This document shows, one piece after another, positions 12,653 through 16,203 of a stretch of 64,000 bases of DNA. A program made the translations under genes and the position numbers. This DNA comes from Flavobacteriaceae bacterium S0862. Lineage in GTDB: Bacteria; Bacteroidota; Bacteroidia; Flavobacteriales; Flavobacteriaceae. The notes under the pieces are model-generated. The model did no database searches, had not been told where the DNA came from, and saw only the letters and a list, made by a program, of their open reading frames with translations. The first letter of the stretch is position 1; every line of letters starts with the position of its first letter. The stretch spans positions 310,001-374,000 of the forward strand of contig JALKAW010000002.1 in assembly GCA_023015825.1 (NCBI GenBank), written 5' to 3'.

Positions 12653-13030
12653 TTAATTCTTATTGAAGTCATCATGAAATTTTTCAAATAACAAATTCAT
12701 TTTAGCTTCAATTTGTTTTAATGTAGGTTTTTCATTCCCAATGTACAAAATCATAAACGCACATTGTGTTGAAAAGTTGTTAAAATATACAGGTTTATTT
12801 AATCGATAAGCCTCTCTTAATAATCGTTTTATCCTGTTTCTATCAACGGCGCTTTTAAAATGGCGTTTACTTACCGAAACTCCAGTTTTAATAGTAACAC
12901 CATCATTAAAAGGGGTTTCTAGATACACTAAACGTAAAGGAAAAGCAGAAATTGAACGTCCTTCTATGAACATTTTTTCAATAAGCTTTTTGCTTTTTAG
13001 CTTTTCTTTCTTAGAATAAGAGGTATCCAT
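12653..13030 (-). CDS. rnpA: Ribonuclease P protein component
   Basis: 125 aa, normal length. The diagnostic basic helix RNRIKRLLREAYRL (about residues 67-80) and SVSKRHFKSAV identify the RNase P protein, which binds the catalytic RNA and the 5' leader of pre-tRNAs. rpmH, the usual upstream partner in other phyla, is absent from the 111 bp before it. Downstream is the S41 protease gene. Confidence 0.94.
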   Translation of the reverse strand: MDTSYSKKEKLKSKKLIEKMFIEGRSISAFPLRLVYLETPFNDGVTIKTGVSVSKRHFKSAVDRNRIKRLLREAYRLNKPVYFNNFSTQCAFMILYIGNEKPTLKQIEAKMNLLFEKFHDDFNKN

Positions 13031-13141: not shown

Positions 13142-14992
13142 ATGGGAGAATTAAAAGTAACAAAACTTACCAGTAAAGAAGATAAAGCTAATTATATTTT
13201 TCATTTACTTAAAGACATAGAGGCTCTCGATTTTATGATTAATAATGATTTAATCGAAAAATCACCCATTAGAATAGGTGCAGAACAAGAATTTTGTTTA
13301 GTAAACAATGAGTTTTTACCAAGTAATAATGCTGTAGAAATATTAAAGGATATCAACGACAATCATTTTACAACTGAAATAGGCAACTATAATTTAGAGA
13401 TAAATTTAGACCCTATTGAATTAAAAAATGACTGCTTTTCAAAACTTCACAATCAGTTAACCGAACTTTTAGGTAAAGCCAATAAAATAGCTGAAAACAA
13501 AAAAACTAAAGTTCTATTAACAGGAATATTACCAACACTCACTCTTAAACATATTGGTATAGAAAATATGACGCCAATAGATAGATATTTTGTGTTAAAT
13601 GAAGCCATAAAAGAGTCCAGAAAGCAAGATTTTAATATTCATATTAAAGGCATTGATGAGATAAATTTACTTCATGACAGTGTAATGCTTGAGGGCTGTA
13701 ACACAAGTTTTCAAATGCACTTGCAAGTAAACCCAGATACTTTTATAGACACCTATAACTGGGCACAAGCAATTTCGGGCCCTATTTTAAGTGCTTGCAC
13801 TAATTCCCCCCTTTTATTTGGAAAAGAACTTTGGAGCGAAACTAGAATATCTTTGTTTACTCAAAGTGTAGATACAAGAGCCAATTCATTTTTATTAAAT
13901 GAGAAACAATCCAGAGTGAGCTTTGGTGACCATTGGTCTACAGGAAGTGTTGCTGATATTTTTAGAGATAATGTTTCTAGATTTAGAAGCTTAGTGACTA
14001 CAGAGTTTACTAAGGACAGCGTTGAAATGCTTGAAAAAGGAGAAATTCCTGGGTTAAAAGCATTAAACCTTCACAATGGTACCGTGTATCGCTGGAACAG
14101 ACCATGTTATGGTGTTGGCGGAGGGAAACCACATCTTAGAATTGAAAACAGATATATTCCTTCGGGACCAACAATGATTGATGAAATAGCTAATATGGTA
14201 TTTTGGGTAGGAGTTATGATGGGAAAACCTAAAATGTATGATAATATTCATCAAAAAATGAATTTTAAAGACGTTAAAAGCAACTTTTTTAACGCAGCAA
14301 GATATGGCATGAACACCCAGTTTCATTGGAATGGTAAAATTATTCCTAGTCATGAACTAATTTTGAACGAACTAATTCCAATGGCCTACAAAGGGCTTTA
14401 TAAAATGAATATTTCTCCAAAAGATGCTGAATATTATTTAGAAATTATAAAAAACAGAATTACCTCAAATAATGGGTCTCAATGGATAACTAAGAGCTAC
14501 AGAAATCTTTTAAAAACTAGAAAACGATTTGAAGCCATTCAAATATTAACCTCTAAGATGTATGCAAAGCAGCAAAAGGAATATCCAATATCATCATGGA
14601 ATATTGTTAAAAAAGACACGACGCCAGAATTCTCTCCAAAAAAAATAGTGAAGCATGTTATGAGTTCGGATATTTTCTCTGTAGATGAAAATGATAGTCT
14701 TGATTTGGTAATTAATATTATGAAGTGGAAAAAATTTAATCACATGCCTGTAATTAACAATGATAAGGAATTGGTTGGTTTATTATCATCAACAGATATG
14801 GAGAAATACATAAGCAATTCTCACAATGGGAGACGTACTATTAGTGGAATCATGCAAAAAACCATTGTTACTATTAACCAATATTCAAGCGCAAAAGACG
14901 CAAAAAAACTTATGAAAAAGCACAATATAAATAGCCTTCCTGTTGTAGAAAAAAATAGGTTAATAGGAATTATAACTTCAAAAGACGTTTAA
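13142..14992 (+). CDS. GCS2-type carboxylate-amine ligase fused to a C-terminal pair of CBS domains
   Basis: 616 aa. Residues about 40-470 are a glutamate-cysteine ligase family 2 (YbdK-like) domain: RIGAEQEFCLV (acidic ligands of the ATP/metal site), TEIGNYNLEINLDPIEL, TSFQMHLQVNP, RFRSLVTTEF, and GGGKPHLRIENRYIPSGPTM, a core strand. Residues about 500-616 form two CBS repeats (VMSSDIFSVDENDSL..., IMQKTIVTINQYSSA...), which bind adenine nucleotides in many proteins. The family joins a carboxyl group to an amine with ATP; whether this one makes gamma-glutamylcysteine or another amide is not shown. Nine bases separate it from the M14 gene downstream, implying joint function. Confidence 0.88.
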   Translation: MGELKVTKLTSKEDKANYIFHLLKDIEALDFMINNDLIEKSPIRIGAEQEFCLVNNEFLPSNNAVEILKDINDNHFTTEIGNYNLEINLDPIELKNDCFSKLHNQLTELLGKANKIAENKKTKVLLTGILPTLTLKHIGIENMTPIDRYFVLNEAIKESRKQDFNIHIKGIDEINLLHDSVMLEGCNTSFQMHLQVNPDTFIDTYNWAQAISGPILSACTNSPLLFGKELWSETRISLFTQSVDTRANSFLLNEKQSRVSFGDHWSTGSVADIFRDNVSRFRSLVTTEFTKDSVEMLEKGEIPGLKALNLHNGTVYRWNRPCYGVGGGKPHLRIENRYIPSGPTMIDEIANMVFWVGVMMGKPKMYDNIHQKMNFKDVKSNFFNAARYGMNTQFHWNGKIIPSHELILNELIPMAYKGLYKMNISPKDAEYYLEIIKNRITSNNGSQWITKSYRNLLKTRKRFEAIQILTSKMYAKQQKEYPISSWNIVKKDTTPEFSPKKIVKHVMSSDIFSVDENDSLDLVINIMKWKKFNHMPVINNDKELVGLLSSTDMEKYISNSHNGRRTISGIMQKTIVTINQYSSAKDAKKLMKKHNINSLPVVEKNRLIGIITSKDV

Positions 14993-15000
14993 AAAACTAG

Positions 15001-16203
15001 ATGGTGGAAATTTATAGCAAAGCATTAAACACGTCTATTTTAGTTGATAGATTAGTTGGAAAAATCAAAGGAAAACCCAATGGGCCTACCATAGTTTTTT
15101 TTGGTGGAATACACGGCAACGAAACAGCAGGAGTATTTGCACTTAAAGAAGTTTTTGAGAAAATAAAAGAAACTCAAGTAGTAGGCACAATATATGGTAT
15201 TTCTGGAAACCTAAAAGCTCTCAAAACTAACCAAAGATTTATAGATAAGGATCTTAATAGAGTTTGGTTAAAAGAAAACTTAAGCCAGCTAGAAAACAAA
15301 ACAAACCTCAACAACGAAGAAGAGGAGCAACAAGAGTTGTATAGAATATTAAAACATATTTTAAAAGAAGAAGAAGGTCCATTTTATTTTATAGACTTAC
15401 ACACAACCTCGAGTAAAACTCTGCCTTTTATTACTATTAACGATGCTTTAATTAACAGAAAATTTTCAAGCCTGTTCCCAGTTCCAGTAGTTTTAGGTAT
15501 TGAAGAGTATTTAGATGGACCGCTGCTGAGTTATATTAATCAACTTGGCTATGTGTCACTTGGGTTTGAGTCTGGTCAACATGACGATTTATGTGCCATA
15601 ACAAACAATGTAGCATTTATATTTTTAAGTTTGATTTATGCTGGCGCCTTAGAGCAAGACGAAGTGCAAAACTTTCATGATTATTACGATATTTTAGTAA
15701 ATGCCTCCGATCAAGATAAAGAAGTTTATGAAGTGGTTTATCTTCATAGGCTGTTAAAAACGAAAAATTTTAAAATGAAACCAAATTTTAAGAGTTTTCA
15801 AAATGTCAAAAAGGGAGAGCAACTAGCAATAGAAGAGAATAAAACCATTGAATCGCCATATAGTGCAAAAATTTTCATGCCTCTTTATCAAAAAAAAGGA
15901 AGCGAAGGATTTTTTATTATTAAAAAAATACATCCGTTTTTCTTAAGTCTTTCCGAGGTTATTAGAAAATGGAAAATGGATACCTTAATAACCATGCTTC
16001 CGGGCATCACGTGGATGGATAAACAACGAGGAGTTTTGAGAGTAAATTTAAAAGTAACTAAATACCTTGCCAAACAAATATTTCACTTATTTGGCTATAG
16101 AAATAAACAAAACACCACCACACATATGTTGCTTTTTAATAGAGAACGAACCTCAAAAAAAGAGATGTATAAAAACCTAAAATGGTACAAAAGGGTATCT
16201 TAA
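15001..16203 (+). CDS. M14-type succinylglutamate desuccinylase/aspartoacylase family zinc hydrolase
   Basis: 400 aa. Zinc-site residues are visible: GGIHGNETAG (His38, Glu41), DLNR (84-87, substrate Arg) and FIDLHTTSS (His134), with GFESGQH (Glu190) as the probable catalytic Glu. These are the landmarks of the AstE/ASPA branch, which cleaves N-acyl amino acids. The last 170 residues (from about 230) form a basic domain with IESPYSAKIFMPLYQKKGSEGFF, resembling the beta domain of aspartoacylases. It sits 8 bp after the GCS2-CBS gene. Substrate unknown; the neighbour suggests an amide or peptide made by the ligase. Confidence 0.87.
   Translation: MVEIYSKALNTSILVDRLVGKIKGKPNGPTIVFFGGIHGNETAGVFALKEVFEKIKETQVVGTIYGISGNLKALKTNQRFIDKDLNRVWLKENLSQLENKTNLNNEEEEQQELYRILKHILKEEEGPFYFIDLHTTSSKTLPFITINDALINRKFSSLFPVPVVLGIEEYLDGPLLSYINQLGYVSLGFESGQHDDLCAITNNVAFIFLSLIYAGALEQDEVQNFHDYYDILVNASDQDKEVYEVVYLHRLLKTKNFKMKPNFKSFQNVKKGEQLAIEENKTIESPYSAKIFMPLYQKKGSEGFFIIKKIHPFFLSLSEVIRKWKMDTLITMLPGITWMDKQRGVLRVNLKVTKYLAKQIFHLFGYRNKQNTTTHMLLFNRERTSKKEMYKNLKWYKRVS

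Follow-up and report, generated by a model that had tools for sequence, protein, structure and literature searches.

What does a marine flavobacterium do with a predicted carboxylate-amine ligase that carries two CBS domains and whose gene is followed, only 8 bp on, by that of a putative amide hydrolase? In the window (the whole stretch analysed, 64,000 nucleotides at G000:C22:310001-374000 of a 3.35 Mb genome), the ligase gene occupies 13142..14992 (616 aa; assigned from its ORF with fold and profile comparison) and the M14 AstE/ASPA-type zinc deacylase gene 15001..16203 (400 aa; assigned from PF24827 and residue invariance), both on the forward strand, and the ORF ends leave an intergenic gap of 14993..15000. 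We confirmed the two ORFs, their gap, their coordinates and their strand as the first-pass annotation had given them. The spacing is comparably tight in related loci; a Gaetbulibacter locus, L009, encodes a ligase 98% identical to that of the window; inspection by eye found no obvious signal sequence on either protein, and PADLOC returned no match. The reading we prefer, at a probability of about 0.5, is that an ATP-dependent, CBS-tuned carboxylate-amine ligase and an M14 enzyme hydrolysing the same metabolite together control how much of a small amide is present in the cell. The ligase would join a carboxylate to an amine or amino acid at the cost of ATP, the carboxylate being, by analogy, the glutamate side chain or a similar acid activated as an acyl phosphate; the CBS pair at its C terminus is probably where a nucleotide-type ligand binds to set activity; and the M14 zinc amide hydrolase would cut the product (or handle the substrate) of the ligase, the two fixing the amide level between them.

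The YbdK-type label given to the ligase in the first pass proved unreadable from the window protein itself by Pfam, which found CBS repeats only and no GCS2 domain (PF04107) at E up to 1, with 0 PF04107 matches in the whole genome of the window. Searching NCBIfam and PDB sequences with the full window ligase likewise returned CBS only, and the NCBIfam YbdK, EgtA and GshA equivalogs did not match its core at E 0.01. Support for the label came instead through relatives, hhalign and an AlphaFold2 model. With a cut-off of E 1, PF04107 matched 33 of 41 proteins of the ligase family (best 6.9e-11), that of the window not among them, and the NCBIfam YbdK, EgtA and GshA models matched other members weakly (best 4.3e-9). 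We built a profile of 41 cores from 36 of 72 sequences (below 72% identity), the window sequence, one further Chlorobiaceae sequence and three Actinomycetota sequences, and hhalign aligned this profile with eight YbdK-type proteins at a probability of 98.2% (4e-14). A single YbdK sequence gave an alignment of no use against the ligase profile, and searching PDB sequences with that profile gave two matches, both at chance level. The first AlphaFold2 model of the ligase was poor (pLDDT 65.6), so the core was folded alone, giving from 11 sequences a model of moderate quality (pLDDT 73.5, pTM 0.81; residues 147-187 and 222-260 below 50). Foldseek placed YbdK (1r8g) first for this core model (E 3.6e-10, TM 0.73 on target length) and plant glutamate-cysteine ligase next. 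Taken together, the core (residues 1-486, 13142..14599, delimited by hhalign mapping of the 41 sequences) is predicted to belong to the GCS2 superfamily, a membership seen only through relatives, profile comparison and structure models. It has in common with the YbdK-type/GCS2 proteins (PF04107), including EgtA and the plant-type glutamate-cysteine ligases, the fold and most polar site positions, whereas it differs from them in falling below Pfam detection, in some 75 extra residues within the aligned core and in its CBS pair.

A comparison of predicted structure and active site with YbdK, proposed in the first pass as a check on the ligase, bore out the likeness only in part: YbdK was the top structural match, but the site is partly changed. 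The hhalign mapping covers 19 polar positions that do not vary in the YbdK-type proteins. Twelve of them hold the same residue in 37 or more of the 41 ligase sequences (window Glu48, Glu50, Glu86, Arg148, Tyr149, His193, Ser222, Asp244, Arg258, Arg320, Glu335 and Arg337), a further position, Arg387 (R289), is kept in 30 of 41, and six are changed in the family; which of the 19 are catalytic is our assumption, and pLDDT drops under 50 in some stretches of the modelled site. Three residues invariant in all 41 sequences, Gln191, Trp318 and Arg333, replace His136, Asp226 and Thr235 of YbdK. Such retention combined with invariant replacement places the window ligase in a separate sister family of the YbdK-type enzymes, with a likely active site and probably different substrates.

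The two CBS domains named in the first pass are evident, with PF00571 matching the window ligase at 1.5e-25 in two stretches; together with a motif scan, these place the repeats at residues ~503-616 (14648..14989). Both repeats close with Ser/Thr-x-x-Asp (GLLSSTD and GIITSKD, the same in L009), which we take to be the CBS ribose-binding motif, and its Asp is present in both repeats at 13 of 14 flavobacterial loci. The solved structures closest to the pair are MJ1225 and MJ0100, the latter solved, according to its title, with S-adenosylmethionine and methylthioadenosine. Gating of the ligase by ATP/AMP through the CBS pair, as first suggested, is plausible from these motifs. In 16 of 21 Balneolaceae copies the motif Asp of the second repeat is replaced by Asn, so the gate may be lost in these proteins, and the CBS pair is missing altogether from the Chlorobiaceae and Actinomycetota relatives of the ligase.

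The downstream enzyme is more directly recognizable, matching PF24827 (AstE_AspA_cat) at 1.2e-20 and 74.3 bits (Pfam cut-off 25) and aspartoacylase chains in PDB at 1.2e-9. The zinc site that the first pass had described as intact is so: His38, Glu41, His134 and Glu190 (the HGNE/DLH/E set) are present and invariant in all of 27 aligned M14 proteins, which we picked from the fetched loci, as are Asn70, Arg79, Asp84, Asn86 and Arg87. His38, Glu41 and His134 form the zinc site, Glu190 is a candidate catalytic residue and Asn86-Arg87 a candidate carboxylate-binding element. The protein shares its catalytic domain and zinc site with AstE and aspartoacylase (M14, PF24827), but it lies far under the NCBIfam cut-offs for both equivalogs (42.8 against 305.65 bits for arg_catab_astE, 59.6 against 180 bits for aspartoacylase), has another partner gene and carries a C-terminal extension (residues ~310-400, 15928..16200, from alignments). 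This extension occurs in the flavobacterial and some Balneolaceae forms and is missing from the short Balneolaceae form.

We next turn to how consistently the two genes occur together. The ligase was present in 116 of 395 sampled genomes of the phylum, and an M14 profile matched 89 genomes at E 1e-10, from which nine with weak matches only (E above 1e-40) were dropped, leaving 80. Both genes were found in 77 genomes, the ligase only in 39, strong M14 only in three and neither in 276; that is, strong M14 accompanied 77 of 116 ligase-positive and 3 of 279 ligase-negative genomes (Fisher p 3e-48, a value that ignores shared ancestry). In 72 of the 77 genomes with both, M14 lies directly downstream of the ligase on the same strand, an association that exceeds chance; the remaining five are the five genomes of family f5, where both genes are present yet apart. 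Among ligase carriers, M14 is found in 7/7 genomes of the window's family, 43/43 of the Balneolaceae (named through Rhodohalobacter), 21/23 of the Chlorobiaceae (which have the FMO protein in 5/5 tested genomes) and 1/3 of family f8, and strong M14 in 0/35 of eleven other families. The expectation that the pair would be conserved as neighbours thus holds in Flavobacteriaceae, Balneolaceae and Chlorobiaceae, and the 39 of 116 ligase carriers that lack strong M14 indicate that M14 is not obligatory and that the ligase can work alone. Two annotated records of actinobacterial ligase relatives showed no neighbour annotated as an AstE/ASPA-type deacylase. The trees of the two proteins are correlated (rho 0.84 over 40 loci; within families 0.64 (6), 0.43 (17) and 0.86 (7)). 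So consistent a pairing among relatives makes it very likely that ligase and M14 serve one metabolic pathway.

That the genes are merely carried along in a conserved neighbourhood, with no function in common, could draw on the flavobacterial loci, where flanking genes are conserved too and synteny is high anyway; we consider it highly improbable, as the adjacency persists amid quite different flanks in Balneolaceae and Chlorobiaceae and in the latter involves a different M14 lineage. At ten related loci M14 adjoins the ligase in nine, the exception being L016, from a metagenome-assembled genome with a broken ligase. This Rhodothermales gene (L016:4482-6404) has an in-frame stop and no M14 beside it, and is either a pseudogene or an assembly error; ligase matches over two frames at G293:C89 and G171:C75 are further broken or misassembled copies. 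Copy number also varies: three Balneolaceae loci (L076, L078 and L079) have two tandem ligase copies ahead of one M14, and genome G321 carries the ligase in triplicate along with two strong M14 genes.

Both members of the pair are found with other partners. In Chlorobiaceae, the CBS-less ligase is paired with another M14 lineage, which is separate from the window type and groups with the M14 of a RimK-RimB operon (local support 0.93); this other branch suggests that the ligase seems to have acquired an M14 neighbour at least twice. Conversely, in all three genomes that have M14 without the ligase, a window-type M14 (35% identity) adjoins genes for a GshB-like ATP-grasp protein and a MATCAP protein (PF08014), the M14 at one of these loci, L122, being convergent. 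The window-type pair and an ATP-grasp/MATCAP cluster of this sort coexist in four genomes (G103, G118, G171 and G211), the cluster having no M14 in the fetched stretch. We regard this two-way swapping, small as its numbers are, as the strongest sign that M14 acts on the products of amide ligases, which is what it suggests.

The same swapping bears on whether the enzymes might instead act in series, M14 deacylating an N-acyl precursor to give an amino acid that the ligase then uses, in a salvage or acyl-exchange route. AstE and aspartoacylase are catabolic deacylases, and gene order and co-occurrence suit a two-step pathway equally well; however, a window-type M14 beside an unrelated amide ligase in three genomes suggests that its role is linked to ligase products generally, which is not decisive and leaves the series arrangement a possible though somewhat unlikely account. 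For the preferred make-and-break cycle, homology, retained active-site residues, tight conserved gene pairing and congruent trees are observed; the chemistry, its direction, the CBS ligand and one metabolite common to both enzymes we infer. A parallel exists in the RimK-RimB system, where, in an excerpt of PMC12239564, an amide ligase and an opposing hydrolase are encoded together, as in the window pair, although RimK is an ATP-grasp enzyme, RimB an aspartic peptidase, and the targets include a ribosomal protein. A weak relative of the window M14 sits in a RimK-RimB operon at L129.

An ordinary glutamate-cysteine ligase making glutathione or another gamma-glutamyl thiol, in a pathway finished by a GshB-like gene at another locus, would account for the family's weak matches to glutamate-cysteine ligase models. 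The first-pass statement that no gshB lies beside the ligase is right for the locus itself, but a GshB-like ATP-grasp gene is present elsewhere in the same genome, and such a gene occurs in 7/7 ligase-positive against 4/34 ligase-negative genomes of the window's family. Genus is a confounder in this comparison, and at E 1e-20 just 9 of the 116 ligase carriers have a GshB-like gene, so it is not a general partner of the ligase; the invariant changes at the YbdK-type site, specific to the ligase family, also speak against the ordinary enzyme. Moreover, bshC is present in 384 of the 395 sampled genomes, that of the window included. Genome G106, which we take to be Chlorobaculum tepidum, carries the ligase. 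In that organism glutathione is undetected, and Chlorobiaceae are described as without glutathione genes, according to an excerpt of PMC6282198. The near universality of bshC and a ligase carrier with no detectable glutathione make a glutathione role unlikely and weaken the small-thiol product first proposed; the complete two-locus thiol pathway we consider very improbable.

A product of another kind is hinted at by mechanosensitive channels. In all four genomes of family f52, the gene immediately following the ligase encodes an MscS channel (for example L100:5417-6499), in the place that M14 takes elsewhere. An MscS orthologue (~57% identical) also lies ~0.6-7 kb from the ligase in all four genomes of f14, which we take to be Rhodothermaceae, as we take f36 to be Salinibacteraceae. 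The ligase might accordingly make a charged or neutral dipeptide-like osmolyte that M14 destroys, or a mechanosensitive channel releases, at falling salinity, and its named carriers, judged by name, are mostly marine or halophilic. The MscS link, however, was found post hoc and may reflect a single ancestral event, and protein acidity, a rough proxy for salinity, was not higher in 13 of the 23 ligase-positive Chlorobiaceae genomes than in 20 ligase-negative ones; when all ORFs were taken, the ligase-negative genomes were the more acidic (p 0.004), and a comparison confined to one genus showed no difference (p 0.78). With evidence so mixed, the osmolyte role is a lead, and we hold it to be improbable. 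It has a precedent in the NAGGN osmolyte operon PA3459-PA3461, which, in an excerpt of PMC8070244, likewise unites synthesis and peptidase genes, although its enzymes are unrelated to the window pair and its product is known.

Returning to the preferred amide cycle, its enzyme class is known, and the combination of a ligase-CBS protein with M14 was not found in the literature searched. Searches that mostly excluded subscription papers found no work joining a carboxylate-amine ligase with a CBS domain and none combining CBS domain, glutamate-cysteine ligase and succinylglutamate desuccinylase; co-mentions of glutamate-cysteine ligase and CBS domain were off topic, judged by title. GCS2-type ligases are commonly annotated as glutathione enzymes, even in bacillithiol-using bacteria. 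A CBS-fused ligase family with a conserved deacylase partner points to an overlooked metabolite, which the pairing makes findable. More tentatively, an undescribed metabolite could be at the centre of a regulated amide cycle that occurs widely across Bacteroidota, Balneolota, Rhodothermota and Chlorobiota, in which one ligase family combines with alternative means of disposal (M14 of two lineages, or MscS) and one M14 lineage with alternative ligases (GCS2-CBS or GshB-like ATP-grasp).

Several neighbouring genes were recorded along the way. A TPR-DUF4292-M23 cluster adjoins the ligase in several families without M14; considered as a possible partner, it was set aside because it resembles ordinary cell-envelope genes. 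In the window's own genome, one cluster at G000:C33:53306-70280 (L131:6640-12250) encodes a sodium:dicarboxylate symporter, a GshB-like ATP-grasp protein, a rhodanese, a protein resembling N-formylglutamate amidohydrolase and a MATCAP protein, the last of these like tubulin tyrosine carboxypeptidase. Just upstream of the pair (12653-13030), the window and L010 are missing a 270-aa lipoprotein-like gene that in L009 and L011 lies between S41 peptidase and rnpA-like genes.
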